Below, in pieces: positions 1 to 19,263 of a stretch of DNA of 64,000 bases. The stretch is from Peptoanaerobacter stomatis (GTDB taxonomy: Bacteria; Bacillota; Clostridia; Peptostreptococcales; Filifactoraceae). The stretch is taken from the NCBI RefSeq assembly GCF_000238095.2, contig NZ_JH815225.1, positions 130,981-194,980 on the forward strand, read 5' to 3'. The first letter of the stretch is position 1. Every line of letters begins with the position of its first letter. The translations under genes and the position numbers were made by a program. The notes beneath the pieces are model-generated. The model was not told where the DNA came from. It did no database searches and saw nothing but the letters and a program-made list of their open reading frames with translations.

Positions 1-135
1 TCAAGAATAAGAGATACTGATATGGCAAAAGAGATGAGTAAGTTTACAAAAGACAACATATTAACACAAGCATCTCAAGCAATGCTTGCACAAGCAAATC
101 AATTGCCACAACAAGTATTACAATTATTAAGATAG
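1..135 (+). CDS. flagellin, C-terminal fragment (5' end outside window)
   Basis: An open frame enters from the left edge and ends at TAG 133-135, giving 44 residues. They read [20 protein letters not shown], then an ILTQAS-type turn, then [18 protein letters not shown], the highly conserved D0 helix at the C-terminus of bacterial flagellins. This end packs in the filament core and carries the export and polymerisation determinants. A hairpin terminator follows directly (153-195), so this flagellin gene ends its own transcript. Its position next to a glycan/acyl-type cluster and a FliB methylase gives that region its likely role. Whether it is the only flagellin cannot be seen here. Confidence 0.93.
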
Positions 136-678: not shown

Positions 679-1632
679 ATGAACGAAATAACCATTGTTA
701 TGTATCATTATGTGAGAGAGCTTGAAAACACAAGATATCCGAATATAAAAGGGCTAAAATTGTCAGAGTTTAAAAAACAGATTGAATATTTTAAACAAAG
801 ATATACGTTTATATGTTTGGAAGATATTTTTGAAGCTATATATGGTGGGAAAAAATTAAAAGAAAATTCTATTTTTTTGACATTTGATGATGGATATTTA
901 GATCATTACACCAATGTATTTCCGATTTTAAAAAACAATGGAATTAGAGGTTTTTTTTCAATGCCAGCAAAAATATTAAATGAAAATGAATTACTGGATG
1001 TTAATAAAATACATTATATACTTGCTGTTGCAGATGAAAACTCTCTTATTAAAAAATTATATGAAAAATTGGATTATTATAGAGGAATCGAATTTAATTA
1101 CCCATCGAATGATGAAATTTTTAATGAAATTAATGTAGAAAAAAGCAGATTTGATAATGAAAATATAATATTTTTAAAAAGAGTATTACAGACATATCTA
1201 CCGTATGAATTGAGAAATAAAATTGTAGATGAATTATTTTTAGAATATGTACTGGAAAATGACATCAGCAAAAAGAATATACTGCTTAATGAAACGTATA
1301 TGAATATGGAACAGATTAAGCTTATGATAAAAAGTGGTATGTCATTTGGATTACATGGATATAATCATGAACATTTAAAAAATATGAGCATAGAAGATAT
1401 GAAAAAAGATATTGATAAAAGTATTTATTTTTGGGATGAAATAATAGATAAGAATTGCTTAACTATTTGCTATCCATATGGTTCATATAATAAGGACACT
1501 GTATCTTATGCTATAGAAAAAGGATGTAAGTTGGGATTTTCAACAAAAATTGCAAAGACTGAATTAAATTTAAAAAATGCATTGACTTTAAGCAGATTTG
1601 ATACAAATGATTTTTATCCGAAATCTAAATGA
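679..1632 (+). CDS. polysaccharide deacetylase family protein (NodB homology domain)
   Basis: The 317-residue protein has the NodB signature. The first motif is TFDDGY near residue 70, whose second Asp binds metal. The second is HGYNHEHL near residue 228 (HxxxxH metal site). A YPYG motif follows near residue 263. Such enzymes remove N- or O-acetyl groups from polysaccharide or peptidoglycan with a divalent metal. There is no signal peptide or membrane segment: the protein starts directly with the MYHYV strand, so it is predicted cytosolic and would act on a sugar precursor or a lipid-linked glycan, not on finished wall. GAGGGTG lies about 11 nt before the ATG. It heads the cluster downstream of flagellin, separated from the next gene by a repeat copy. 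The exact substrate cannot be told. Confidence 0.85.
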   Translation: MNEITIVMYHYVRELENTRYPNIKGLKLSEFKKQIEYFKQRYTFICLEDIFEAIYGGKKLKENSIFLTFDDGYLDHYTNVFPILKNNGIRGFFSMPAKILNENELLDVNKIHYILAVADENSLIKKLYEKLDYYRGIEFNYPSNDEIFNEINVEKSRFDNENIIFLKRVLQTYLPYELRNKIVDELFLEYVLENDISKKNILLNETYMNMEQIKLMIKSGMSFGLHGYNHEHLKNMSIEDMKKDIDKSIYFWDEIIDKNCLTICYPYGSYNKDTVSYAIEKGCKLGFSTKIAKTELNLKNALTLSRFDTNDFYPKSK

Positions 1633-1647
1633 TTTTATTTATATATT

Positions 1648-1757
1648 TAATATTATTATCTAATAAAATAATAGATATTTTATAAAAATAAGTCTATAAA
1701 TAATATCATATTTTATACAGTATAATTTTTATAGCATTCTATCAAATTTTAATATAA
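1648..1757 (+). repeat. short interspersed repeat, subtype A (diverged)
   Basis: TATTATCTAATAAAATAATAGATA at the left and TTCTATCAAATTTTAATATAAAG at the right match the two ends of the other copies. It lies between the deacetylase and malic enzyme genes. Confidence 0.5.
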
Positions 1758-1813
1758 AGCAAAAATACTTAAATTTAATATTTTATTTAAATAAATATAA
1801 TTTAGGAGGAGCT

Positions 1814-3010
1814 ATGGTTAATTTTGAAGAAGAGGCGTTAAAACTCCATAAGCAAAACAAAGGAAAAATTGGTATAAAAAGCAAGATAAATATAAATAGT
1901 AAGGAAGTATTCAGTTTGGCACATACTCCTGGAGTGGCATTTGCTTGTAAAGAAATACAAAAAAATCCAGACTCTATATATGAATATACTGCAAAAGGGA
2001 ATTTGGTGGCTGTTGTAACAGATGGTTCGTCTATATTAGGTCTTGGTAATATAGGCTCTAAAGCAGGTATGCCCGTTATGGAAGGTAAGGCTATGCTTAT
2101 GAAAGAATTTGCAGATGTTGATGCTTTTCCTATATGTTTGAATACACAAGATACAGAAGAAATAATATCTGCAATAAAAAATATATCACCTACATTTGGT
2201 GCTATCCATTTAGAAGATATAGCTGCACCAAAGTGCATAGAAATAGAAAAAAGATTATCTGATGAACTTAATATACCTGTTTTTCATGATGATAGAGATG
2301 GAGCAGGAATAGTAGTAAGTGCAGCTTTATTGAATGCACTTAAGTTAGTAAATAAACCTATAGAAAAAGTAAAAATATGCATAAATGGAGCTGGAGCTGC
2401 CGGATACGGTGTACTTAATATGTTAATGTTACTTGGAGCAAAAAATATAATAGTTTGCGATAGAAAAGGTATAATATATAAAAATAGAGAAAATGACAAT
2501 TTATTTAAACAAGAAATTGCTGATATTACGAATAAAGATTTAATAACGGGTAACTTGAAAGATGCTGTCAATAATGCGGATATTTTTATAGGTGTATCTT
2601 CGTCTAATCTATTAGATGAAAGTATGATACGATCTATGAATGAAAAATCTATAGTTTTTGCTATGGCAAATCCTGTTCCTGAAATATATCCAGATGTTGC
2701 AAAAAAATATGGGGCATTTATTGTTGGTTCTGGTAGGTCAGATTATGAAAATCAAATCAATAACATATTAGCTTTTCCGGGAGTATTCAGGGGATTATTG
2801 GATGCAAGAGCTAAAAAGATAACAGATAGTATGAAATTGGCTGCAATAAATGCAATAGCTGAGTCTATAAGTGATAGTGAATTAAATCCGAGCTATATAA
2901 TACCAAGCGCCCTTGACAGAAGAATAGCACCTCTTGTATCAAAAGCAGTATTTGACGCTTATAAAAAAGAATTTAATATTAATAAAGAAAGTGATATATA
3001 TGAAATATGA
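1814..3010 (+). CDS. NAD(P)-dependent malic enzyme (malate to pyruvate + CO2)
   Basis: The 398-residue protein has the compact bacterial malic enzyme architecture. An N-terminal catalytic domain contains YTAKGNLVAVVTDGSSILGLGN and KAMLMKEFADVDAFPIC. The metal-binding stretch is LEDIAAPKCIEIE, followed by HDDRDGAGIV. The Rossmann NAD(P) domain has GAGAAGYGVLNM near residue 191. It decarboxylates malate and yields NAD(P)H. AGGAGG precedes the ATG by 4 nt. Unusually for a central-metabolism gene, its 3' end overlaps the LuxE-like start by 11 nt, so the two are probably translationally coupled. It may supply reducing power or pyruvate to the LuxC-type reductase; that link is inference. It could equally be the cell's only housekeeping malic enzyme. 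Confidence 0.93.
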   Translation: MVNFEEEALKLHKQNKGKIGIKSKININSKEVFSLAHTPGVAFACKEIQKNPDSIYEYTAKGNLVAVVTDGSSILGLGNIGSKAGMPVMEGKAMLMKEFADVDAFPICLNTQDTEEIISAIKNISPTFGAIHLEDIAAPKCIEIEKRLSDELNIPVFHDDRDGAGIVVSAALLNALKLVNKPIEKVKICINGAGAAGYGVLNMLMLLGAKNIIVCDRKGIIYKNRENDNLFKQEIADITNKDLITGNLKDAVNNADIFIGVSSSNLLDESMIRSMNEKSIVFAMANPVPEIYPDVAKKYGAFIVGSGRSDYENQINNILAFPGVFRGLLDARAKKITDSMKLAAINAIAESISDSELNPSYIIPSALDRRIAPLVSKAVFDAYKKEFNINKESDIYEI

Positions 3011-4076
3011 TGATGTCTTAAAATATGAACCATTTTCATTAACTAAAGCTGAAAAACAAATACTTTTATTAAAAAGATTAAATTATCTAACTAAATTGCA
3101 TTATGAAAAATGTGATGATTATAGAAAAATTCTTGATTTTTTAGGATTCGATAAAAATAAAAATTATAATGTTGAAGAACAAATATTTTTACCTATTAGA
3201 CTTTTTAAAGAATTGGATTTAAAAAGCATACCTGATGATGAAATATTTAAAAAAATGACCTCATCAGGAACAACAGGGCAGCAAGTTTCAAAAATATATT
3301 TAGATAGAGCCACATCTTTATACCAACAAAAAACTCTAATAAAGATAATGAGCAGTATTATTACTCATAATCGTATGCCTATGATAATAATAGATACAAA
3401 AAGAGTTGTGAGCGATCCGAATTTTATTTCAGCAAGAAAATCTGGTATACTTGGTTTTTCATTATTTGCAAAAGATAAAATTTTTGCACTTGATGATAAT
3501 ATGAATTTGGATATAGATTTATTAGAAAAATTTTTAGAGAAACATAAAAATGAAGATATTTTCATATTTGGATATACTTTTATAATATGGCAATATTTTT
3601 ACGAAGAATTAAAAAGACGTAGAAAAACTTTAGATTTATCAAATGTTATACTACTTCATGGTGGCGGTTGGAAAAAACTGAAAAATTTAAATATATCTGA
3701 TATGGCTTTTAAAGAGTCCTTGAATCAAGTAGCAAATATAAAAAGAATATCAGAATTTTATGGCATGGCTGAACAAACTGGCAGTATATATATTACTTGT
3801 GAACATGGAAATATGCACACAAGTACATATTCAGATATTATTATTAGGAGAAAAGAGGACTTTTCTATATGTGATATAGGAGAAAAAGGAATTATACAGC
3901 TAATATCTCTTATACCGGAATCATATCCTGGACATAATATACTTACAGAAGATGAAGGAGTAATATTAGGAGAAGATGATTGTCCTTGCAATAGAAAAGG
4001 AAAGTATTTTAAAATATTAGGCAGAATACAAAATGCTGAAATTAGAGGATGTAGTGATACCTATGAGAGAAAATAA
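3000..4076 (+). CDS. LuxE-like acyl-protein synthetase
   Basis: The product has 358 residues from the ATG at 3000 (MKYDDVLKYEPF). An in-frame upstream ATG at 2934 would extend it 22 residues into malic enzyme and has no ribosome site. The adenylate-forming signature TSSGTTGQ lies at residues 87-94 and FYGMAEQTGSIY near 256, as in the LuxE family. LuxE activates a fatty acid with ATP and passes the acyl group to the cysteine of LuxC. Outside luminous bacteria, LuxE homologues sit in surface-polysaccharide clusters, where their substrates are mostly unknown. The gene overlaps malic enzyme at its start and luxC at its end, so all three should be made together. No LuxAB luciferase is present. Confidence 0.88.
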   Translation: MKYDDVLKYEPFSLTKAEKQILLLKRLNYLTKLHYEKCDDYRKILDFLGFDKNKNYNVEEQIFLPIRLFKELDLKSIPDDEIFKKMTSSGTTGQQVSKIYLDRATSLYQQKTLIKIMSSIITHNRMPMIIIDTKRVVSDPNFISARKSGILGFSLFAKDKIFALDDNMNLDIDLLEKFLEKHKNEDIFIFGYTFIIWQYFYEELKRRRKTLDLSNVILLHGGGWKKLKNLNISDMAFKESLNQVANIKRISEFYGMAEQTGSIYITCEHGNMHTSTYSDIIIRRKEDFSICDIGEKGIIQLISLIPESYPGHNILTEDEGVILGEDDCPCNRKGKYFKILGRIQNAEIRGCSDTYERK

Positions 4077-5259
4077 TGTATATCATTATATAAAATCTGA
4101 TATATATAAAGGGAAGATTTTAGATATATTTGACAGTTTAATTTGTGAGTTTTTGAATGATTTGTCGATACACTTAATGAATACTACTGACAAGAAGTTG
4201 TATCCTGATATAATAACATTTGCGTTTTATATAAGAAAATCTAATATACTAAAAAAGAAAGAGCTGTATGCAAATTCAATGACAAGAATAGGAAAAGGAG
4301 TAGTTTTTCATATTGCACCATCTAATGTGCCGATAAACTTTGCATTTTCTTTAGTATTTGGATTATTATCTGGTAATATAAATATAGTAAGAGTTTCAAA
4401 AAAAGATTTCAAGCAAACAAAAATAATATGTAATAGTATAAATAATATTTTAGATAATGATAAGTATAGTAGTATTAAAAATAATATAAGTATAATATCT
4501 TATGAACATAATAAAAAAATTACAGATTATTATTCCAATCTATGTGATGTTAGAATTATTTGGGGAGGAGATAATACAATAAATGAAATAAGAACATCCC
4601 CTATAAATACACGAACTATGGAGTTAACTTTTGCAGATAGATATTCGTTTTCTATAATATCTGCAAAAAGTATACTTGATTCATCAGATGAGCAATTAAA
4701 AAGATTATCAGAAAATTTTTATAATGATACTTATTTAATAGATCAGAATGCTTGCTCTTCACCACATCTGATAGTATGGAAAAATGATGTCGAAAATTAT
4801 GAATTATTGAAAAAATCTAAAGATATTTTTTGGAAATTTGTTTATAATACTGTAAAAAAATGGGAAATTGAAGATGTTTATGCAAGTGAAAAATATACTC
4901 TTGCATGTGAATATGCTACAATTTATGAAGAAATAGATAAGTTGGAAAGATATGATAACTATATATATATATTGAATCTCAATTCAATAAAAAATTCTAC
5001 AATAAAAATAAAAGGTAAGTTAGGATTATTTAGTCAAATATCTATTGATTCTTATGATGAAATTGCACCATTATTAAAAAAAGAAACTCAAACAATAACA
5101 TATTATGGCATTGTTTCCGGTGAAATAGTAGACTTTATAAAAAAAATTGGTACAAAAGGTGTTGATAGAATTGTACCATTCGGAAAATCATTGGAATTAG
5201 ATTTAATTTGGGACGGATATGATATTATTAATATGTTGTCAAGAATAATATATAGGTAG
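4063..5259 (+). CDS. LuxC-like acyl-CoA/acyl-protein reductase
   Basis: The 398-residue protein belongs to the LuxC branch of the aldehyde dehydrogenase superfamily. HIAPSNVPINFAFS near residue 83 is the nucleotide-binding strand region. DQNACSSPHL places the catalytic cysteine at residue 231 (counting from 4063), and DRIVPFGKSLELDLIWDGYDI near the end is typical of the family. It reduces an activated acyl group to an aldehyde with NAD(P)H. I prefer the ATG at 4063, which has AGAGGA upstream; an ATG at 4033 adds ten residues and lengthens the overlap with luxE. Together with LuxE it forms the fatty-acid-reductase pair. The aldehyde cannot feed a luciferase here, so another acceptor such as a sugar or protein amine is likely (inference). 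Confidence 0.9.
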   Translation: MRENNVYHYIKSDIYKGKILDIFDSLICEFLNDLSIHLMNTTDKKLYPDIITFAFYIRKSNILKKKELYANSMTRIGKGVVFHIAPSNVPINFAFSLVFGLLSGNINIVRVSKKDFKQTKIICNSINNILDNDKYSSIKNNISIISYEHNKKITDYYSNLCDVRIIWGGDNTINEIRTSPINTRTMELTFADRYSFSIISAKSILDSSDEQLKRLSENFYNDTYLIDQNACSSPHLIVWKNDVENYELLKKSKDIFWKFVYNTVKKWEIEDVYASEKYTLACEYATIYEEIDKLERYDNYIYILNLNSIKNSTIKIKGKLGLFSQISIDSYDEIAPLLKKETQTITYYGIVSGEIVDFIKKIGTKGVDRIVPFGKSLELDLIWDGYDIINMLSRIIYR

Positions 5260-5266
5260 ATTAATT

Positions 5267-6193
5267 ATGGATAACAACTTGTTTTTTAAAAGAGCAACGA
5301 TAAATGACTTAGATAAGATTATAAATTTTTTGAAAACTAATTTTAAAAAAAGAAAATCATATTATGAAAAGAAAGATTTTTTTAAAAATGAATTTTTAGA
5401 TTTTGATGAGTATAATATGAATTGCGTTATATCTTGTGATAAAAGTGATAATATATTGTCTTTATCAAGTTATTATATGCCTAATAAACATTTTATGCTT
5501 TCTGGATTATGGTCTTCTAATGAAAAATCACCTCCTATGACAGGTTTTTTAACAAGAAAATATATGATTGACACTGTAAAGCCAAATATATTTTGTGGAA
5601 TAACTGAAATTAAAGAATCACTTATATCTCATAGGAGATTTGCACCCAATATATTGAATTTCGAATATTATATAGTAGATAAATACAAGTACAAGTATAA
5701 TTCCAATAATTTAAAACTAATAAATCTCACATCAGATATTTATTTTTTGGATGAAAAGTCATATTCTAATATGAAGGTTAATTTTTATAAAACTTATTCT
5801 TATTTTTTAAAAAGATATATTTCAAATTTATTTTTAGATTATAAAATATATGCCTTGTATGATGCTGATACTTTGCTTTGTATTATTGTTTTTAAGATAA
5901 ATTATGAAAAAAAAATTTTGTGTATAGTAGATTATTTAGGTAATTACCAATATATAAACAATATAGATATGTCGGTATTAGCAGATGAGTACGATTGTAA
6001 CTTTATTGATTTTTTATGTTATGGATTTGATAGTAAAATTTTGCTTGATTCAGGCTTTATATTAAAAAAAGATATAGATTATTCATATACATATAATGGA
6101 AAATCACCTACTAATTATGGAAGATTATATGCTTTTTCTACAAAAACAGATATATTTTTAACAAGGGGCGATGGTATACTGCAGGAAATCTAA
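5267..6193 (+). CDS. GNAT-like acetyltransferase-fold protein, paralogue 1
   Basis: The 308-residue protein starts with FKRATINDLDKIINFLKTNFKK, the first strand and helix of a GNAT domain, followed by a second half of similar size. It is clearly related to the next protein: both share the N-terminal R-A-x-x-x-D-x-x-K-I pattern, a ..FL/ExxRY or LxRKYMI helix, and near the C-terminus a block FIDFLCYGFD..LLDSGF that matches VDFYQYGISEDILNSSGF in paralogue 2. Proteins of this type occur in surface-glycan gene clusters and presumably acylate a sugar amine. It starts 7 nt after luxC and is surely cotranscribed. I see no strong canonical acetyl-CoA loop (Q/RxxGxG/A), so catalytic activity is uncertain. 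Confidence 0.6.
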   Translation: MDNNLFFKRATINDLDKIINFLKTNFKKRKSYYEKKDFFKNEFLDFDEYNMNCVISCDKSDNILSLSSYYMPNKHFMLSGLWSSNEKSPPMTGFLTRKYMIDTVKPNIFCGITEIKESLISHRRFAPNILNFEYYIVDKYKYKYNSNNLKLINLTSDIYFLDEKSYSNMKVNFYKTYSYFLKRYISNLFLDYKIYALYDADTLLCIIVFKINYEKKILCIVDYLGNYQYINNIDMSVLADEYDCNFIDFLCYGFDSKILLDSGFILKKDIDYSYTYNGKSPTNYGRLYAFSTKTDIFLTRGDGILQEI

Positions 6194-6199
6194 TAATTG

Positions 6200-6328
6200 A
6201 TACTAATATCTGCTTAATTAATAGATAAAATTTATATTGAGATATTTATTTTAAGTATGCTTAATTTTTGGTAGCTAATCAATTCTTAAAAACAGAAATA
6301 TCCATTATTGTATTAACTTTTAGTATAA
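6200..6328 (+). repeat. short interspersed repeat, subtype B
   Basis: Begins TACTAATATCTGCTTAATTA, contains ATAGATAAAATTTATATTGA and TTTTAAGTATGCTTAATTTT, and ends ATTAACTTTTAGTATA. It lies inside the modification operon, and its last bases run straight into the AAGGAG of the next gene. Close relatives are at 32657-32781 and, inverted, at 41672-41787 and 54164-54281. Confidence 0.75.
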
Positions 6329-6337
6329 GGAGATTTT

Positions 6338-7348
6338 ATGAAAAGTAAAGTAAAGATAAGATTTGCTAATGTTCATGATGTTTCAAAAATAATGACATTT
6401 ATAAAAAAATACTGGGCTGAAAATCATATACTTGCAAATAATAAAAATTTTTTTGAATATCAGCATAAAATAGATGACAAAATTACTTATGTAATAGCAG
6501 AAAATGATTCAGAAGAAATATTAGGTCTTATAGGATACATACCGTATTCTAACGAAGATAAGCCTGATATAGCTACAGCATTATGGAAGTCTATAGATAG
6601 TACAAATCCTCTTTTAGGATATGAAATTTTGAGATATGTTATTAATAATACAAATTCAAGAATAGCCTGCTGCTGTGGTATAAATACTACTACATTTTTA
6701 TTTTATAGAAAATTAGGTTATACCATAGGTACATTAGAGCATTATTATAGACTAAATGATATAAAAGAATATAAAATAGCTATAATAAATGATAGAAAAA
6801 TCTTAGAAAACCCTACATCAAATAAAAATTATGAACTTAAAGAATTTTTTGAATTTAATAAATTACTGTCGGAATTTAATTTTAGTGTGTGTAGAGATAG
6901 AAAACCGTATAAAAGTAAAGATTATATAAAATATAGATATTTTGAACATCCTATATATAAATATAAAACATATGGAATAATAGGTGATTATGGTAAATGT
7001 AATTCTATAATTATTACAAGAGAGCAGTGTGTAGAAGAATCAAGACAATTAAGAATAATAGATTTTTTTGGAGTTGATGATGATTTAAAACATATATATA
7101 ATGCTTTGGGAGAATTAATGTGTAAAAATAATTATGAATATGTCGATTTTTATCAATATGGTATAAGCGAAGATATATTAAATTCTTCAGGCTTTATAAA
7201 AAAAGACAGTAATGATATTAACGTAATTCCAAATTATTTTGAGCCTTTTGTACAAAAAAATATAGATATACATTTTTATATATCTGAAAAAGACAATTTT
7301 TATTTATTTAAAGGTGATGCTGATCAGGATAGACCAAATTTTTATTAA
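6338..7348 (+). CDS. GNAT-like acetyltransferase-fold protein, paralogue 2
   Basis: The 336-residue protein starts VKIRFANVHDVSKIMTFIKKYW, a GNAT beginning, with an acetyltransferase-like strand VIAENDSEEILGLIGYIPY near residue 66 and FLFYRKLGYTIGTLEHYYRL near residue 127. Here the RKLGY element is the typical C-terminal part of a GNAT domain, so it looks more canonical than paralogue 1. It ends FYLFKGDADQDRPN, a tail I associate with proteins from O-antigen or flagellar-glycan clusters. AAGGAG precedes the ATG by 6 nt. The pair probably arose by duplication and may modify two positions of one sugar, or form a heterodimer; both are inference. Confidence 0.65.
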   Translation: MKSKVKIRFANVHDVSKIMTFIKKYWAENHILANNKNFFEYQHKIDDKITYVIAENDSEEILGLIGYIPYSNEDKPDIATALWKSIDSTNPLLGYEILRYVINNTNSRIACCCGINTTTFLFYRKLGYTIGTLEHYYRLNDIKEYKIAIINDRKILENPTSNKNYELKEFFEFNKLLSEFNFSVCRDRKPYKSKDYIKYRYFEHPIYKYKTYGIIGDYGKCNSIIITREQCVEESRQLRIIDFFGVDDDLKHIYNALGELMCKNNYEYVDFYQYGISEDILNSSGFIKKDSNDINVIPNYFEPFVQKNIDIHFYISEKDNFYLFKGDADQDRPNFY

Positions 7349-7439
7349 ACATAAATATTTAAAATTCAAAAAATAGAATTTTGAATATGATATATAGCTA
7401 TAAAATTGTGATATTATTAAATATAAAGGAGAATTTATT

Positions 7440-7679
7440 ATGACAAATATAGAAAAATACAATGCTGTTTTTATGGGAACTTTTTCAATAAACGAAAATG
7501 ATTTGAAAGAAAATCCTACTTATCAAAAACTTAAAGTGTGGGATTCAGTTGCTCATATGTCTCTTATTTTTGCGATAGAAGAAGCTTTTGATATATCATT
7601 TGAAACAGATGATATGATAGACTTTGATTCTTATGAAAAAGGAAAAGAATTATTAAAAAAATATGATATACAATTCTAA
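7440..7679 (+). CDS. acyl carrier protein
   Basis: A 79-residue acidic helical protein with WDSVAHMSLI, where Ser36 is the expected 4'-phosphopantetheine attachment site (D-S-hydrophobic motif). AAAGGAG lies 8 nt upstream. Being encoded 11 nt before the SDR reductase and in the same run as an AMP-forming ligase and LuxC/LuxE, it is a dedicated carrier, not the fatty-acid synthase AcpP, which normally has DSLD and sits with fab genes. The likely flow is ligase to ACP, reduction on the carrier, then transfer or reductive release. This flow is inferred from the gene set. Confidence 0.9.
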   Translation: MTNIEKYNAVFMGTFSINENDLKENPTYQKLKVWDSVAHMSLIFAIEEAFDISFETDDMIDFDSYEKGKELLKKYDIQF

Positions 7680-7690
7680 GGGATGATAAA

Positions 7691-8428
7691 ATGTTAAATG
7701 ATAAAAATATAATAGTTACAGGAAGTAATAGAGGCATAGGAAAATCAATAGTAAAGATATTGGCATCCAATAAGGCAAATATTTGGGCTGTAAGTAGAAA
7801 TATAACTGATGAATATATAAATTTTTTAAGAGATTTAGAAAGAAAAAACGGTATTTTTATAAAACCTATATATGCAGATATGAGAAGTGAAGAAAATATA
7901 AAAGATGCATATAAAGAAATAAGTTCTGAAAAAAAACAAATAGATGGTTTAGTAAATACTGCAGGTATTATGAATAATACATTATTTTCTATGACATCAT
8001 CAAGTGTTTTTAAAGATGAAATGTCTGTGAATTTCTATTCTATTTTTCTACTTACACAACTTGTAAGTAAGAAAATGCAAAGACAGAAGAATGGTAGTAT
8101 TGTAAACTTTACTTCTACAGTGGCAATAGATGGTTGTGATGGAAAGGCATCATATTCTGCTACTAAAGGAGCAATTCTTTCTTTTACAAAATCAATAGCT
8201 AAAGAATTAGGCTCATATAATGTAAGAGCTAATTGCATTGCTCCAGGTATAGTAGATACAGATTTGATAAGTAATGTTAGTGATGAAAAGAAAAAAATAT
8301 ATATTGATAGTACATCACTAAAGAGAATAGCGCATACTGACGAAATAGCAAATGTAGCATTATTTTTACTTTCAGAGTATTCAAGTTATATTACTGGTCA
8401 AGTTATAAGAGTAGATGGTGGATTATAG
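7691..8428 (+). CDS. SDR-family 3-oxoacyl-ACP reductase-like protein
   Basis: The 245-residue classical short-chain dehydrogenase has the cofactor motif TGSNRGIG at 10-17, an NTAG motif near 89-92 (NNAG in most relatives), catalytic Ser142 and Tyr155/Lys159 in SYSATKGA, and it ends TGQVIRVDGGL like FabG. Such enzymes reduce a 3-keto group on ACP, or a sugar keto group. GGGATG lies 6 nt before the ATG. Its place directly after the ACP favours an acyl-ACP substrate. No ketosynthase is encoded in the cluster, so the keto substrate would have to come from elsewhere or from a preformed acid. Confidence 0.88.
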   Translation: MLNDKNIIVTGSNRGIGKSIVKILASNKANIWAVSRNITDEYINFLRDLERKNGIFIKPIYADMRSEENIKDAYKEISSEKKQIDGLVNTAGIMNNTLFSMTSSSVFKDEMSVNFYSIFLLTQLVSKKMQRQKNGSIVNFTSTVAIDGCDGKASYSATKGAILSFTKSIAKELGSYNVRANCIAPGIVDTDLISNVSDEKKKIYIDSTSLKRIAHTDEIANVALFLLSEYSSYITGQVIRVDGGL

Positions 8429-8444
8429 AGAAAAGGCGATGTTA

Positions 8445-8846
8445 ATGAATACACAAGAAGATATATTTAAAAATTTGGAATTTCATCATATAGGAATAGC
8501 TACGAAATCCATATCAGATGAAATCATGCTTTATAAAATGTTAGGATATAAAGAGGAAACAGATTTTTTTAATGATTATGAGCAAGGTATAAGAGGAATA
8601 TTTTTAAATAGCGATAGTGGTGTAAGAATTGAATTATTAGAAAATCTCCCTAATAGTAATATACTTGATGAACATATTAAAAAGAATAATAAAAATTATC
8701 ATTTAGCTTTCTTGTCTGAAACTCTTATTATAAAATCAAGGAATCTTAAAATGCTAAAAGAGCCTAAATATTCCAGTTATTTTAAAAAGAAAGTTTGTTT
8801 TTATATTATGAAAAATATGGCTATTATTGAATTAATAGAAAAATGA
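8445..8846 (+). CDS. VOC-superfamily (glyoxalase/epimerase-like) protein
   Basis: A 133-residue protein starting with FHHIGIATKSISDEIMLYKMLGYKEE, the beta-alpha-beta opening of vicinal-oxygen-chelate proteins, with a second metal-ligand region VRIELLEN near residue 66 and HLAFLSE near 87. His and Glu positions resemble methylmalonyl-CoA epimerase-type proteins. Longer starts at 8415 and 8439 exist; GAGAAAAGG sits 8 nt before the ATG at 8445, so I choose that. The reading frame overlaps the SDR gene only if the longer start is used, and its end overlaps the ligase gene by 4 nt (ATGA). It may epimerise or isomerise the carrier-bound acid. At 133 residues it is a single-module size. Confidence 0.7.
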   Translation: MNTQEDIFKNLEFHHIGIATKSISDEIMLYKMLGYKEETDFFNDYEQGIRGIFLNSDSGVRIELLENLPNSNILDEHIKKNNKNYHLAFLSETLIIKSRNLKMLKEPKYSSYFKKKVCFYIMKNMAIIELIEK

Positions 8847-10264
8847 AAGAAGATATTGTTATGGAATTTTATAATTTAGATGATAGATATAATGATAAAC
8901 CTATAATTATAGATTATAGAGGAAATTTATTAAATAAAGATAAATATAAAAAAATAAATTTAGAAATTAAAAATAATATAAAAAAAAGAACTCTTGTATT
9001 CTTATTTTGTGAAAACAGTATAGATTGTATATCTATCTATATAAGTCTTCTAAATAATGGGATTGTACCTGTTATGATTTCTCCTGATTTAGATGAAGAA
9101 TTGTGTAATAATTTGATAAATATATATAAGCCTTCATATTTGATTTTGAATATTAGTATGAAAAAACAAAAATTTGATTATAAAAAAGTATTAAGTAATG
9201 GAGATTATATATTTTTAAAAACTGATTATTATGAAAAGCATAATCTTAGTGATGAATTGGCAATTCTTCTTACTACATCAGGGAGTACAGGTTCTCCTAA
9301 ATTAGTAAGACAAAGCTATAAAAATATAAACTCTAATGCAAGTGCAATAGCTAAATACTTGGAATTAAATGAATATGAAAAGCCTATTACTACATTGCCA
9401 TTTAATTATACTTATGGTATATCGGTTATAAATAGTCATTTATTAGTAGGAGCAACGATACTTGTTACCAATAAATCAATAATACAAAGAGATTTTTGGG
9501 ATTTTGTAAAAAAATATAAAGCTACATCCATTGCAGGAGTACCATATACGTATCAAATGCTCAAAAAAATAAGATTTTTTGATATGGATTTACCTTATTT
9601 AAAAACTATGACACAAGCAGGTGGGAAATTATTAGTTGAACTTCACGAAGAATTTGCAAACTTTGCATTAAAAAATGATAAAAAATTTGTAGTAATGTAT
9701 GGGCAAACTGAAGCAACAGCAAGAATGGGATATCTTCCGCACGATAAGTCTATTGAAAAAATAGGAAGTATGGGAATTTCTATACCAAATGGACGTTTTG
9801 AGTTAGTAGATGTTGATAATAATATAATAGATACTCCGGAAGTTATAGGGGAATTGGTTTATTATGGTGACAATGTAACACTTGGATATAGTGAAAATAT
9901 AGAGGATTTATCAAAAGATGATGAAAGAAATGGCAGACTTGTAACAGGTGATATGGCAAAATTTGACGCAGATGGATATTATTATATAGTTGGAAGAAAG
10001 AAAAGATTTTTGAAAATTTTTGGTAACAGAGTCAATCTTGATGAAGTTGAAAGAATTTTAAATTCTCAATTTACTGAAAATGAGTTGATTTGCTCAGGGA
10101 AAGATGATAACATGATTGTTTACTATACAAAATTATTAGATGAGAAGATTCTCAGTGATTTTTTGTCGGATACTTTGCATATTAATAAGTCTGCATTTAG
10201 ATTTAAAAAAATAAAAAACATTCCCAAAAATGAATCAGGTAAGATACTGTATTCTAAATTATAA
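8843..10264 (+). CDS. AMP-forming acyl ligase (ANL superfamily)
   Basis: The 473-residue enzyme has the complete adenylation motifs: P-loop LTTSGSTGSPK (143-153), MYGQTEATAR, TGDMAKFDADGYYYIVGRKKRF with the hinge region, and a C-terminal IPKNESGK whose Lys467 is the adenylation lysine. It activates a carboxylic acid with ATP and transfers it to CoA or, given the dedicated ACP, to the phosphopantetheine of the carrier. It starts inside the previous gene (ATGA overlap) and is the last gene of the run. At 473 residues it is slightly shorter than typical acyl-CoA synthetases and has no thioesterase or condensation domain attached. The substrate cannot be read from the sequence. Confidence 0.9.
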   Translation: MKEDIVMEFYNLDDRYNDKPIIIDYRGNLLNKDKYKKINLEIKNNIKKRTLVFLFCENSIDCISIYISLLNNGIVPVMISPDLDEELCNNLINIYKPSYLILNISMKKQKFDYKKVLSNGDYIFLKTDYYEKHNLSDELAILLTTSGSTGSPKLVRQSYKNINSNASAIAKYLELNEYEKPITTLPFNYTYGISVINSHLLVGATILVTNKSIIQRDFWDFVKKYKATSIAGVPYTYQMLKKIRFFDMDLPYLKTMTQAGGKLLVELHEEFANFALKNDKKFVVMYGQTEATARMGYLPHDKSIEKIGSMGISIPNGRFELVDVDNNIIDTPEVIGELVYYGDNVTLGYSENIEDLSKDDERNGRLVTGDMAKFDADGYYYIVGRKKRFLKIFGNRVNLDEVERILNSQFTENELICSGKDDNMIVYYTKLLDEKILSDFLSDTLHINKSAFRFKKIKNIPKNESGKILYSKL

Positions 10265-10568
10265 TAATAGCAAATAAAAAATAATGAATATTTTAAATTT
10301 ATATGCAATTAATAAAACGATAGTATTAAATATAAATTAATTGATTTTATAAAGATGAAGTTAGTAAGTATATTATTTAATTTAATTTTATTCAATTAAA
10401 TTAAATAGATATTTTTTATATAATGATAAAATATATTTTGCTTGGGGCACTTTTATAAATATCTGCTTTGCAGGTATTTATAAAAGTGTTATTAATTTAA
10501 CTCACAAAACAATTTGAGAATCTCTTGATTCAAATAGAGTTTGCAATAAAATCATAGTTTTTTATAAA
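10265..10568. other. 304-bp convergent intergenic region between the acyl ligase and fliB
   Basis: No ORF. It contains a strong hairpin: arms 10448-10465 and 10471-10488, 18 pairs with one wobble, loop CTTTG. This hairpin probably ends transcription from one or both sides, although no T-run follows. The surrounding sequence (AAATATATTTTG ahead of the hairpin, TTATTAATTTAA after it) recurs around 35640-35715 and partly at 17020-17130, so it is itself a repeat. Confidence 0.55.
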
Positions 10569-11816
10569 TTAATTGTTTATTAAAGTGTACATGCCTCCTA
10601 AGGTATTAAGTTCCCAGTTTTCTATGTTTTGAATTAAGTAATGATAATAATTACTGTTATGTGCCAAGCTTCTTGAAACAGCACGTACTATATTGAAAAA
10701 ATCTTCTTTTTTTATGCTATCGTTATCTTTTGCTATTCCAAACATTAGTGATTTTATTATAAAGTAATCTCCACATAATACTATTAGAGATTTCCATATA
10801 TCATCAGGATATGTGAAAGGCATTAAATCTAAAAAATATTTGTTTACAAGATAATTTTCAATCATCATGCTACCTATATCGGAGTCAAAAAAAGGTCTTA
10901 TTTTATTTTTTATAACAAAATTATATTCATTTAACAATGTATTATCATCTTTATCGTTTTTAAAAAAATCTATTGTAGAATTTATAAAAATAGAGATTGA
11001 TGAATCTTTGTTTTTAAGAGAAATGTTTTCTAAACTAAGTATTATTTCTTTGCACAATAATGCTTGTTGGAATTTATTTTCAGATAAACTGTCTAAAAGA
11101 GAGTTATCGTTTAAATTTTCTAATGTATTTACAAATTTTATTATTTCATCATCTATTAGTTGATAATTTTTCTGTTTTATAAGCGCATTTACTTTTTTGT
11201 AAAGTATGCCAAGAAAAGTAAGCCTTGACACTATATCAATATTTCTATTCTGCAATATTGTAATTGAAGCTATTCTGATATTCCAAAAATATTTGTGAGC
11301 GTTTTTGCTTACAAATCTGCCTTTTGTATATATCCTTTTTTTATAATTCATATATTTTTGGTAATCAAGTTCTATATGTTCGAAACATATTCCGTTAGGA
11401 GAGTATAGTATTTTTCTTGCTGCTTCAGGGCATGATGGGGTAAGAGACATTTCTAATTCATCATCTACAGAGTTGAAATGCCTTGGATATGTTTTGCAAG
11501 TGTCACACATATAATCTTCGCCAAGATTTATGTATATATTACATAGTAAATCTTCATTTAAAAATGGACAACTGTTTCCATTTTTATTATCAAGATTTAT
11601 AATTGCATAATCTTCATCAGATATAGATTTTTTATTTTTTATTACTTTATTATCTTTAAGAGGATGAAAAATATTGTCTTTTAATTTTTTGTATTTCTTA
11701 TATGTTTCTTTATCTACAGTTATATTCCAATTTTTACAACAGGTTTCTTCGCAGTTGGAACCTATACAGGTAAAATCTTTTAAGTATTCGGGCACTAATA
11801 CCTTTACTTTTCCCAT
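10569..11816 (-). CDS. fliB: flagellin lysine N-methylase
   Basis: The 415-residue protein begins VLVPEYLKDFTCIGSNCEETCCKNWNITVD, the hallmark N-terminal cysteine cluster of FliB (Cys17, 22, 26, 27), and continues with CPFLNEDLLCNIYINLGEDYMCDTCKTYPR and SCPEAAR. The cysteines are thought to bind an iron-sulfur cluster. In Salmonella, FliB methylates lysines of flagellin. It is transcribed toward the acyl ligase from the opposite end, so flagellin and fliB bracket the LuxC/LuxE/ACP cluster. That bracketing is the best evidence that the cluster acts on flagellin. Full length for the family, no disruption. Confidence 0.9.
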   Translation of the reverse strand: MGKVKVLVPEYLKDFTCIGSNCEETCCKNWNITVDKETYKKYKKLKDNIFHPLKDNKVIKNKKSISDEDYAIINLDNKNGNSCPFLNEDLLCNIYINLGEDYMCDTCKTYPRHFNSVDDELEMSLTPSCPEAARKILYSPNGICFEHIELDYQKYMNYKKRIYTKGRFVSKNAHKYFWNIRIASITILQNRNIDIVSRLTFLGILYKKVNALIKQKNYQLIDDEIIKFVNTLENLNDNSLLDSLSENKFQQALLCKEIILSLENISLKNKDSSISIFINSTIDFFKNDKDDNTLLNEYNFVIKNKIRPFFDSDIGSMMIENYLVNKYFLDLMPFTYPDDIWKSLIVLCGDYFIIKSLMFGIAKDNDSIKKEDFFNIVRAVSRSLAHNSNYYHYLIQNIENWELNTLGGMYTLINN

Positions 11817-12087: not shown

Positions 12088-13149
12088 TTACATAATAACT
12101 CTATTTTTTCCGCTGTTTTTACCTTTATACATTTTTTTATCTGCAAGTTTAATTATTTCTTTTACATTTGAAGACTCTTTGGAGCTTGCAGCACCTAATG
12201 TTATAGTTGTGTTTATTTTTTTGTTGTTTATGATTATAGAAGATTTTTCAACTGTTGTTCTTATTCTCTCCAATATGCTGTACACAATATTATCGTTTAA
12301 GGCTTTTTCTTGACCTTTTGGAGTTTTGAACAACATTAAAAACTCTTCTCCGCCCCATCTGAATATCATATCAGAACTTTTTGTTTTCTTGTTCAATATA
12401 TTCGATATCATAACAAGTATGTCATCGCCGATGTCGTGACCGTATGTGTCATTTATTTTTTTGAAATTATCAATATCTACAAAGGCGATGTAAAAATGCT
12501 CGTTATCAGAAAAATTCTGTATATTATCATCTATATTACTAAGAACATCGTCAGCTTTATGTCTATTATATAGTTGTGTAAGTCTATCGGTATACATAAT
12601 ATTTTCCATTCTTTCAAATTTGTCTTGAAAAAATGCTTTTTCCATATTTGCAGACCATTTTAGGACTTTTTCTGCAAATAAAATCATTCCGAAAAGACCG
12701 ATTATATTCGTAAGAGAAAAATATACCGTCAAAAATGTCAAGTTTCTGTTAGAAAAATCAAGTTTTACATCAAAATATAATATAAAATATAATACACATT
12801 CAATTACTGCCAATATATAGAAAATTTTTCTATTTGGAAAAGGTACTGTTATTGCTAAAAAGCATAAAGCTATGAGCCAGTTTTGAAAACTGTACTCCCA
12901 GCCCAATATATATGTAATTACAGTATAAAGTACAGTACCTTCTATAAGTGATGAAAGTACAGCAATCCGCTGGTTTTTAAATATATAAAATATGTTTATC
13001 AGCAATATAATTGTACCGATAAAGTCCAAATAAACTAATTCGTATTTACCTATACTGAGAAAAGCAAAGAAAAGTGAAATATTTAATATAAGTCCAAATA
13101 ATATTAGTAAGAAATAAGTTGGTCTGTCTGGAATATTTTTATTAATCAT
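12088..13149 (-). CDS. membrane-bound diguanylate cyclase (GGDEF domain)
   Basis: A 353-residue protein with about six hydrophobic segments in the first ~165 residues, then a cytoplasmic GGDEF domain: DRLTQLYNRHKADD, AFVDIDNFKKINDTYGHDIGDDIL and the active-site loop RWGGEEF. It should make cyclic-di-GMP from two GTP, in response to a signal sensed by the membrane part. The position five residues before GGEEF carries KSSD, where RxxD would form the inhibitory I-site, so product inhibition may be absent. It lies upstream of fliB in the same direction with a repeat between them; cyclic-di-GMP control of motility makes the neighbourhood sensible. The target is unknown. Confidence 0.92.
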   Translation of the reverse strand: MINKNIPDRPTYFLLILFGLILNISLFFAFLSIGKYELVYLDFIGTIILLINIFYIFKNQRIAVLSSLIEGTVLYTVITYILGWEYSFQNWLIALCFLAITVPFPNRKIFYILAVIECVLYFILYFDVKLDFSNRNLTFLTVYFSLTNIIGLFGMILFAEKVLKWSANMEKAFFQDKFERMENIMYTDRLTQLYNRHKADDVLSNIDDNIQNFSDNEHFYIAFVDIDNFKKINDTYGHDIGDDILVMISNILNKKTKSSDMIFRWGGEEFLMLFKTPKGQEKALNDNIVYSILERIRTTVEKSSIIINNKKINTTITLGAASSKESSNVKEIIKLADKKMYKGKNSGKNRVIM

Positions 13150-17268: not shown

Positions 17269-18213
17269 ATGAATAAAAGTATAACAGAAGGAATGAAAAG
17301 ACGCAAGCAAATAATAGAATATGCAATAAAAGAAAAAAATAATGCAAAAGCAGCAAGAAAATACCATGTAACAAGACAGTATGTACATTATTGGATGAAA
17401 AGATATGATGGAACAATAGAATCATTAAGAAAAGAGTCAACAAAACCAAAAAGCCATCCAAAAGAGCACACAGCAGAAGAACAAGAAAAGATAAAACATT
17501 GCTATAGATATCATAAGCATGAAGGGTTAGCACAAGTATACAGAAAGTTACAAGAAAAAGGATATACAAGATGCTATGATTCAATGACAAGACAGATAAA
17601 AAAATTAAAATTAAAAACTATACAAGAAAAAAAAGAAATTAGAAAAAAGAAGAAAGAAAAGAAAGTAAGCAAAGTAACAAGACCAGGAGAGCAAGTACAA
17701 GTAGATATAAAATATGTACCGTTAGAATGCATAGGATTTAAAAGTGAAGTAGACAGATATTATCAAATAACAGGTATAGATGTATATACAAGAAAAAGAA
17801 TATTGAAGCTTGTAAAAGAAAAAAGCACATACGAAACAAGTAATTACTTAAATACATTAGAAAAAGAAATGGGATTTAAAATAGAGCAAATACAAACAGA
17901 TAATGGATTAGAATTTACAAATGAGCAAGACAGAACAAATAAAAAAAGTAGATTTCAAAAAACATTAGAAGAATTAGGTATAGAGCATAAACTAACAGCC
18001 GCATACAGTCCGTGGCAAAATGGGTATGTAGAAAGAAGTCATAGAGAAGATAGTGAGAAATTTTATGCAAATAGAAGATTCAAGAGCGAAGAAGAGATGT
18101 ATAAGAGTTTTGAAAGATATGCAAAAAGGCAAAACAATATAGCGAAGAAAGTTTTGAAATTCAAAACTGCAAATGAAATGTTAGAAGATTATATAGAAAA
18201 AGCGAGAGTGTGA
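17269..18213 (+). CDS. DDE transposase (integrase core, IS481-like)
   Basis: The 314-residue protein has an N-terminal helix-turn-helix (AIKEKNNAKAARKYHVTRQYVHYWMKRYDG, residues 19-48), a second basic helical segment to residue ~138, and an rve/integrase core with catalytic Asp146 (QVDIKYV), Asp211 (QTDNGLEFT) and Glu255 (YVERSHRED). The motif order and the single full-length frame fit the IS481/IS3-related group; no frameshift is needed. All three acidic residues are present, so it is probably active. AAAGAGG precedes the ATG. Codon use is lysine/AAA-heavy like the host. Confidence 0.9.
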   Translation: MNKSITEGMKRRKQIIEYAIKEKNNAKAARKYHVTRQYVHYWMKRYDGTIESLRKESTKPKSHPKEHTAEEQEKIKHCYRYHKHEGLAQVYRKLQEKGYTRCYDSMTRQIKKLKLKTIQEKKEIRKKKKEKKVSKVTRPGEQVQVDIKYVPLECIGFKSEVDRYYQITGIDVYTRKRILKLVKEKSTYETSNYLNTLEKEMGFKIEQIQTDNGLEFTNEQDRTNKKSRFQKTLEELGIEHKLTAAYSPWQNGYVERSHREDSEKFYANRRFKSEEEMYKSFERYAKRQNNIAKKVLKFKTANEMLEDYIEKARV

Positions 18214-18222
18214 TTTAGAAAA

Positions 18223-18266
18223 TTTTTAACAATATATGGGGTTACCCGCATATATTGTTAAAAAAA
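18223..18266 (+). terminator. hairpin terminator of the transposase gene
   Basis: TTAACAATATATG (18226-18238) pairs perfectly with CATATATTGTTAA (18249-18261), extended by flanking T and A runs. Confidence 0.75.
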
Positions 18267-18329
18267 TATGATATACAATAATCAAAATTATATTATAGGC
18301 TTTGTGTCAAAAATGTTTGACTTTTTTAC

Positions 18330-18355
18330 AAAAATAATTTAATTTATTTGTGCTA
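18330..18355 (+). repeat. 26-bp direct repeat, right copy
   Basis: Identical to 17142-17167; directly adjoins the right end of the insertion. The remaining bases up to the next gene (18356-18543) are AT-rich with no other feature that I recognise. Confidence 0.85.
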
Positions 18356-18543
18356 AATATTGACAAAATAAGTGATTAACGGCTATAATATTGTAGATAT
18401 AATTATGCAAACTTATATTGATGTTGTTTGATTATATTAATTAAACATTTTTATTAAATATTTTACTGGTTGTTGAAAATAATCAATAAGTATTAAGTTT
18501 TGAATTTGTATAATATAAGTTTAAATAGAGTGAGGGATAACAA

Positions 18544-19263
18544 GTGGATATAAAAATAAGTTCATATATTCAACATTATGTAGGGCCGTCACAATCATAT
18601 TATAATGCTCAAAATAGATTTGATTCCATATTGAAATATAAGCTTGGGATTTTTAAAGAAGATAAAAATTTAACTGATGAAAATATAATTTTTGATTATG
18701 GTGATACAAAAACAGAAAATACTGAAGATAGTGCAGTGTTTTCTGATAATTCTAAGATTTCAAAAGACAGCTTTTCTTCTGTGAAACCACTTGCAAAAAC
18801 AGTTGGGTCTATACTCATAAATGGAATTTTGGATACAACGGATGTTAGAAAAAAATCTAATTATTCTGCTGAATATCTCAATTCAAAACTTTCAGGAACG
18901 CCGTTAGAAGGACTTGGCGAAGATTTTAAACGTGCAGAGGATTTGTATGGCATAAATTCAATAGTGCTTATGTCTATGGCAAAATTGGAATCTAATTTTG
19001 GAAGAAGTAAAATAGCTTTGGATAAAAATAATTTGTTCGGTTATCAAGCATATGATTCAAGCCCATATACATCTGCGAAATCATATAACACTAAAAAAGA
19101 CAGTATATATGATGTAGCAAAACATCTCTCTAATAATTATTTGAGTCCGAATGGAGATTATTTTAATGGATATTCTGTGGATGCTATAGGCTTAAAATAT
19201 TCTACTGACAGTAGTTGGGCATCTAAAGTTAAAAAGATAGCATCAGAGCTTATAAAAGCATAA
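18544..19263 (+). CDS. glucosaminidase-domain protein (peptidoglycan hydrolase)
   Basis: A 239-residue protein. The C-terminal half (residues 118-239) is an endo-beta-N-acetylglucosaminidase domain: DLYGINSIVLMSMAKLESNFGRSKIALDKNNLFGYQAYD, with Glu149 as the expected catalytic acid, then YDVAKHLSNNYL. The first ~100 residues are a polar, low-complexity linker. There is no signal peptide, which is notable for a wall hydrolase; export through the flagellar apparatus (as with FlgJ, which carries the same kind of domain) is conceivable because flagellar rod genes lie downstream. The start is GTG at 18544 with GTGAGG 9 nt upstream. Confidence 0.85.
   Translation: MDIKISSYIQHYVGPSQSYYNAQNRFDSILKYKLGIFKEDKNLTDENIIFDYGDTKTENTEDSAVFSDNSKISKDSFSSVKPLAKTVGSILINGILDTTDVRKKSNYSAEYLNSKLSGTPLEGLGEDFKRAEDLYGINSIVLMSMAKLESNFGRSKIALDKNNLFGYQAYDSSPYTSAKSYNTKKDSIYDVAKHLSNNYLSPNGDYFNGYSVDAIGLKYSTDSSWASKVKKIASELIKA

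Follow-up and report, generated by a model that had tools for sequence, protein, structure and literature searches.

We analyzed a 64,000-nucleotide stretch of the Peptoanaerobacter stomatis genome (2.33 Mb; assembly GCF_000238095.2, NZ_JH815225.1, positions 130,981 to 194,980 of the forward strand), referred to below as the window (C1:130981-194980). We focused on an island beside a flagellin gene that encodes homologs of LuxE and LuxC together with a putative acyl carrier protein (ACP). Ten genes lie on the same strand between window positions 679 and 10264. Neighboring genes overlap at four junctions (MalE/LuxE, LuxE/LuxC, SDR/VOC, and VOC/AMP ligase), a pattern as in operons, and gaps of approximately 90 to 180 bases separate the deacetylase gene from the MalE gene, GNATa from GNATb, and GNATb from the ACP gene. 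Surveyed genomes carry G numbers and extracted stretches L numbers. The features are as follows (window positions).

1 to 135, plus strand: 3' end of a flagellin gene, read from the sequence, with the C terminus ending at about 135
679 to 1632, plus strand: NodB-type polysaccharide deacetylase (PDA; PF01522, E 4.5e-22)
1814 to 3010, plus strand: MalE, a small malic enzyme (PF00390, E 1e-30, also PF03949), overlapping the start of luxE
3000 to 4076, plus strand: LuxE, acyl-protein synthetase homolog (PF04443, E 1e-51)
4033 to 5259, plus strand: LuxC, acyl reductase homolog (PF05893, E 9e-30)
5267 to 6193, plus strand: GNATa, a diverged paralog of GNATb (24% identity, E 1e-12)
6338 to 7348, plus strand: GNATb, GNAT-like, a proposed N-acyltransferase with homologs at loci linked to nonulosonic acid (NulO) genes
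7440 to 7679, plus strand: ACP (PF00550, E 0.011, 16.4 bits against a cutoff of 20.8), with the serine in a WDS motif
7691 to 8428, plus strand: SDR, a FabG-like 3-oxoacyl-ACP reductase (PF13561, E 3e-54; TIGR01830, E 1e-63, below its cutoff)
8415 to 8846, plus strand: VOC, methylmalonyl-CoA epimerase-like (PF13669, E 2e-10; TIGR03081, subthreshold)
8843 to 10264, plus strand: AMP ligase, a proposed acid:ACP ligase (PF00501, E 2e-41)
10446 to 10490, plus strand: terminator-like hairpin of 20 pairs followed by a T-containing tail, between the AMP ligase gene and fliB
10569 to 11816, minus strand: FliB, flagellin lysine-N-methylase (NF038110, 297 bits against a cutoff of 85)

The start of luxE was set at 3000 from the sequence, not at the TTG of the mechanical open reading frame (ORF) at 2934. 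The original prediction had placed all ORFs correctly and had recognized the flagellin end; its assignments of PDA, malic enzyme, LuxE, LuxC, SDR, VOC, and AMP ligase each have a Pfam match, and FliB scores well above its family cutoff. Two further assignments held in part: the ACP keeps its WDS serine but falls below the Pfam cutoff, and the two GNAT-like proteins are indeed paralogs, neither of them with a significant Pfam match. LuxAB and a ketosynthase are absent among the island ORFs, as had been stated. The island had also been described as bracketed by fliB. The gene is adjacent but convergent, and the terminator-like hairpin appears to mark the end of the operon ahead of it; fliB is thus a neighbor outside the operon. 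A GGDEF diguanylate cyclase gene (12088 to 13149) lies directly 5' of fliB on the same strand.

Members of the LuxE/LuxC family activate an acid and then reduce it to an aldehyde. The active-site cysteines of both proteins (LuxE in RGCSDT, LuxC Cys241 in DQNACSSP) align with those of chains E and A, respectively, of the 7xc6 structure and are kept in 22 of 22 homologs, which makes it likely that the P. stomatis pair also activates an acid and reduces it to an aldehyde. Overall similarity to the 7xc6 chains amounts to 34 to 42 bits only, and the bioluminescence equivalogs NF052251 and NF052244 were not reached (55 bits against cutoffs of 750 and 550). The phosphopantetheine serine of the ACP is invariant in the window protein and five homologs, and the score of the window ACP lies far under the cutoffs of fatty acid ACP profiles. 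Homologs of the AMP ligase occur near the ACP at most surveyed loci. PDA carries the motifs TFDDG, HGYNHEH, and YPYG and has no apparent N-terminal signal peptide (both read by eye), so it is probably a cytoplasmic de-N-acetylase; its homologs adjoin LuxC in Helicobacter cinaedi (49% identity), G990 (46%), G263, G825, and G960. GNATb homologs occur in the same genomes (38% in both H. cinaedi and G990) and travel with the ACP cassette. The G263 homolog matches PF13527 (Acetyltransf_9) below the cutoff (E 2e-4), and a fold search with a weak model of GNATb (pLDDT 47) gave GNATs as top matches at E 1e-3.

The genes upstream of the window changed the picture of the locus. In the stretch C1:112000-131700 (L003), the island is preceded by maf, fliD, fliS, a FlgN-like gene, and flagellin genes; maf stands beside fliD and the flagellins. 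The Maf flagellin glycosyltransferase (581 amino acids [aa], C1:123070-124815; PF01973, E 1.7e-42) is the sole PF01973 protein in the genome. The absence of a glycosyltransferase noted in the original prediction is therefore true inside the window only and arose from where the window was cut. The tandem flagellin genes contain runs of N (L003:16855-17204 and 18002-18981), which are assembly gaps. A 116-aa protein assigned to no Pfam family (L003:15623-15973) is encoded between the FlgN-like gene and the flagellins; by position alone, it would suit the role of a GlfM-type Maf helper. A complete legionaminic acid (Leg) pathway was found approximately 400 kb away (C1:527800-534700, L007), comprising LegB/C, a PtmE-like protein, and LegH/I/G/F, with names assigned by gene order and similarity. 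The genome can therefore provide a glycosyltransferase as well as a NulO donor. NulO genes lie inside the island in G263 and G825 and outside it here.

To place the operon in a wider context, we surveyed 20 LuxC loci of Bacillota (window included) as well as loci from Helicobacter and a Pelagibacter contig. At 12 of the 20 Bacillota loci (G263, G715, G658, G825, G747, G834, G971, G966, G990, G1045, G629, and G200), a NulO synthase of the NeuB/LegI/PseI type lies no more than 15 kb from LuxC, compared to a chance expectation of about 0.7% per locus. An overall probability was calculated over 18 loci under an assumption of independence, and no weight is placed on its precise value. Eight loci (the window, G263, G715, G658, G825, G747, G200, and G629) have at least one flagellar gene (maf, fliD, fliS, flagellin, or fliB) within approximately 20 kb. 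In G263 and G825, Leg genes, maf, fliS, fliD, and flagellin form one contiguous block with the genes for PDA, GNATb, ACP, SDR, AMP ligase, LuxE, and LuxC. The G990 module adjoins Leg genes, four of which are 64 to 72% identical to those of P. stomatis. The same seven genes form an isolated module in G960, whose NulO synthase lies at a distance of 310 kb, a split as in P. stomatis. A NulO synthase is encoded in all surveyed genomes that have a complete cassette with an ACP, the exception being the Pelagibacter contig, which belongs to a partial single-cell genome. FliB was found at 2 of the 20 loci, the window and G629, where a FliB homolog stands beside pse genes (L112:11149-19769); this is the only other FliB-Lux neighborhood found. 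A LuxE-LuxC-AMP ligase trio beside an rpoN-like gene (named by eye) in G492 and G576 (L034 and L036), genomes without a NulO synthase, puts these enzymes to another use.

The NulO-linked loci differ in their accessory genes. Leg-type loci carry PDA and GNATb, whereas most loci of the pseudaminic acid (Pse) type carry a DUF4910/DUF2172 protein instead, which we take, from its aminopeptidase-like description, to be equivalent to the Campylobacter Cj1295 family. An amide hydrolase is therefore likely in both types. Because Pse- and Leg-type contexts intermingle in the LuxE/LuxC tree, the cassette probably acts as a plug-in that makes a substituent rather than the sugar skeleton. In several relatives, the cassette is joined by genes for transketolase, radical SAM, dehydratase, or thiamine diphosphate (ThDP) enzymes, so the product probably varies among them. 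In H. cinaedi (L010) and a Pelagibacteraceae genome (L012), the cassette is accompanied by radical SAM/SPASM proteins, FabA-like dehydratases, and a split transketolase, with no flagellar genes within the part of these stretches examined. This is apparently an uncharacterized biosynthetic cluster common to very distant bacteria.

Taken together, we consider it likely that the operon tailors the NulO glycan of flagellin. The Maf gene upstream, the Leg pathway, the contiguity in G263 and G825, and the published cassettes of Aeromonas and enterobacteria (see below) argue for this, and they also uphold the earlier proposal of a carrier-linked acid or aldehyde pathway for flagellin glycan modification. 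A more specific mechanism, which we put forward tentatively and to which we give slightly less than even chances, is an exchange of the N-acyl group on Leg before Maf transfers the sugar to flagellin. Leg would be made by the distant pathway. LuxE would convert a small carboxylic acid into an acyl-AMP and then an acyl-cysteine, and LuxC would reduce it to the aldehyde, so that the pair would work as a carboxylic acid reductase. The SDR may then reduce the aldehyde or a keto group, and the AMP ligase would load the resulting hydroxy- or oxo-acid onto the dedicated ACP. PDA would strip an N-acetyl group from CMP-Leg or from a precursor of Leg, GNATb (perhaps GNATa) would move the ACP-borne acyl onto the freed amine, and Maf would transfer the CMP-sugar to flagellin. 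Hydrolysis of an N-acetyl group followed by installation of an ACP-borne acyl in its place would be the shared logic of Leg- and Pse-type loci. The step order and the acyl swap are inferred, and the chemical product even more so; that the acyl is a small hydroxy- or oxo-acid is a guess.

Several observations weigh against NulO tailoring, in general or in this detailed form. The surveyed loci are not independent, as they include some pairs of close relatives and come mostly from two orders chosen for having hits; in the first, even sample of the phylum, two of the four nonself LuxC loci were linked to NulO, Maf, or flagellin genes and two were not. The modules of G960 and H. cinaedi have no flagellar or NulO genes nearby, and LuxC and LuxE of G629 are very diverged. 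Several Pse-type loci carry the cassette without GNATb or PDA. MalE has no counterpart at the other surveyed LuxC loci, VOC was present at the window locus only among them, and neither these two proteins nor GNATa, which likewise lacks a counterpart elsewhere, has a step of its own in the scheme. (MalE was considered as a source of NADPH or of a C4 acid, and nothing favored a particular role.) Because the Leg genes are 400 kb away, the Leg link in P. stomatis is drawn by analogy with G263, G825, and G990. In the literature searched, we found no measured product for any such LuxE-LuxC-ACP cassette.

The operon is rare among the relatives of P. stomatis. Of 198 genomes searched in the order, only the window's own encodes LuxC, with no close relatives in the same order; in the phylum sample, 5 of 398 genomes do. 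Although flagellins are present in 9 of the 11 family genomes searched (P. stomatis included), LuxC occurred in no other of them, nor did a further copy of FliB, and Maf had no strong match in the two genus-mates. The flagellin neighborhoods examined in sister species contained no Lux cassette; other sugar genes are present in some neighborhoods within the family. The G+C content of the island genes is 22 to 28%, compared to 30.1% ± 3.2% for the other window genes; it is also low in Maf (25%) and FliB (25 to 26% range for both) and host-like in MalE (31%). In a tree of LuxE and LuxC, the window proteins group beside Helicobacter. Given this rarity, the low G+C content, and the Helicobacter affinity, the natural reading is that the operon would have been acquired horizontally. 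The maf-flagellin-Lux region is flanked by an rve-type transposase gene on each side (window 17269-18213 and L002:8458-9391); the two are approximately 48 kb apart and match without a difference over 934 bases.

The same features fit an alternative in which the operon serves another surface glycan or a small molecule and owes its place beside flagellin only to a hot spot where foreign genes insert. The deviating G+C content, the closest LuxE/LuxC in Helicobacter, the H. cinaedi and G960 modules without flagellar genes, and the G708 module, which has neither NulO nor flagellar genes near it, are in its favor. However, linkage to maf, fliD, fliS, or flagellin recurs in G263, G825, G658, G715, G747, and G200, and the Maf gene of this locus is equally low in G+C; we regard the hot-spot explanation as rather unlikely. 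Also unlikely is that a fatty acyl or fatty aldehyde becomes the lipid-like part of a flagellin "liposugar," as suggested in the surveys of Aeromonas and Enterobacteriaceae (PMC7874193 and PMC4875605). Characterized LuxE/LuxC homologs do use long-chain acyl groups (7xc6), but the operon encodes no ketosynthase or thioesterase, LuxC and LuxE have low similarity to the bona fide bioluminescence proteins, and the ACP scores far below the cutoffs for fatty acid ACPs.

Two further possibilities concern the fate of the aldehyde, and we find each of them improbable. It could be the acceptor for a carbon-carbon bond-forming enzyme that extends a sugar-like chain, as suggested by the split transketolase in H. 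cinaedi, G990, G708, and Pelagibacter, by the ThDP-type enzyme (by eye) and NeuB-like synthase of H. labetoulli, and by the NeuB-like gene beside the ACP gene in G1045; no such carboligase is encoded in the window operon or in the G263, G825, and G960 modules. Alternatively, LuxE-LuxC and the dedicated carrier could leave a free or masked aldehyde, or a novel substituent, on flagellin NulO. If so, the filament would bear a reactive or chemically new group, and the Lux pair would have a new role outside bioluminescence. The earlier idea that flagellin lysines receive the aldehyde, competing with methylation by FliB, is very improbable: aldehydes can react with lysine amines and fliB is the next gene, but only 2 of 20 LuxC loci have FliB and 12 have a NulO synthase, fliB is convergent and past the hairpin, no reductive-amination enzyme is evident, and the NulO/Maf route is at hand; a FliB-linked lysine modification system was set aside on the same count.

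An ACP-FabG-ligase-LuxE-LuxC cassette is described in 98 Aeromonas strains, and deletion of the adjacent island segment, which lies between the pseC side and luxC, lowered flagellin mass and motility in Aeromonas piscicola (PMC7874193). All five genes are together in the window operon. Compared by annotation, the Group II polar-flagellin islands of Aeromonas combine the cassette with NulO genes and maf-2, often near flagellar genes; they differ in having pseudaminic acid, a large number of glycosyltransferases, and Fgi-1 following luxC (PMC7874193). In P. stomatis, the NulO genes are of the Leg type and remote, and PDA, two GNAT-like proteins, malic enzyme, and VOC are added. The same cassette occurs in approximately 70 enterobacterial strains (PMC4875605), with AcpP, FabG, a FadD/CaiC ligase, LuxE, and LuxC beside fliC in these islands and in the fliA-fliC cluster of Dickeya zeae (PMC4875605 and PMC7575072). 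The Dickeya cluster differs in using VioA, RfbC, and FkbM, with no Maf listed. Enterobacteriaceae also have FliB islands (PMC4875605 and PMC7575072); in the enterobacterial survey, FliB and glycosylation islands were nearly mutually exclusive, whereas both occur at one locus here.

The bioluminescence fatty acid reductase (7xc6) shares both active-site cysteines and the LuxE-LuxC pairing with the operon, which differs in its low similarity, its lack of LuxD, LuxA, and LuxB, and its own ACP and AMP ligase. Literature searches for N-4-hydroxybutanoyl NulOs and for GriC/GriD as LuxE/LuxC-like acid reductases gave nothing specific; N-3-hydroxybutyryl NulOs exist (marine polysaccharide review, PMC3210612). 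In Clostridium, maf, flagellins, fliB, and NulO genes share a variable region by fliD, and C. beijerinckii has FliB, Maf, and Pse genes (PMC13317340). LuxE and acyl-carrier terms are absent from the main text of that report, and LuxE had no match in the papers searched on Clostridium and Geobacillus flagellin islands.

For the acyl swap, a known counterpart is the Cj1295 system. Cj1295 is needed for the 2,3-di-O-methylglyceroyl group at N5 of flagellar Pse in Campylobacter jejuni, and its authors proposed removal of the acetyl followed by reacylation with another acyl (PMC3068675). In both systems, a dedicated acyl group would replace the one at N5 of a flagellar NulO, and an amide hydrolase is proposed, but LuxE/LuxC are not reported for Campylobacter, and Leg-type loci have PDA in place of the DUF4910/DUF2172 protein. 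Filament assembly, the binding of phages, and recognition by the immune system are all influenced by flagellin glycans. The flagellin glycosylation islands of several phyla repeatedly contain Lux-type acid reductases, for which surveys only guessed at a liposugar; the comparison offers a testable alternative, in which an amide hydrolase and an ACP-borne acyl would serve NulO N-acyl exchange. The window operon, G263, and G825 are compact systems for identifying the transferred group. The core gene set is not new, having been described in the flagellin islands of Aeromonas and enterobacteria; what is new here is a version from a Gram-positive bacterium that is linked to Leg and Maf and includes a deacetylase and a GNAT-like pair.

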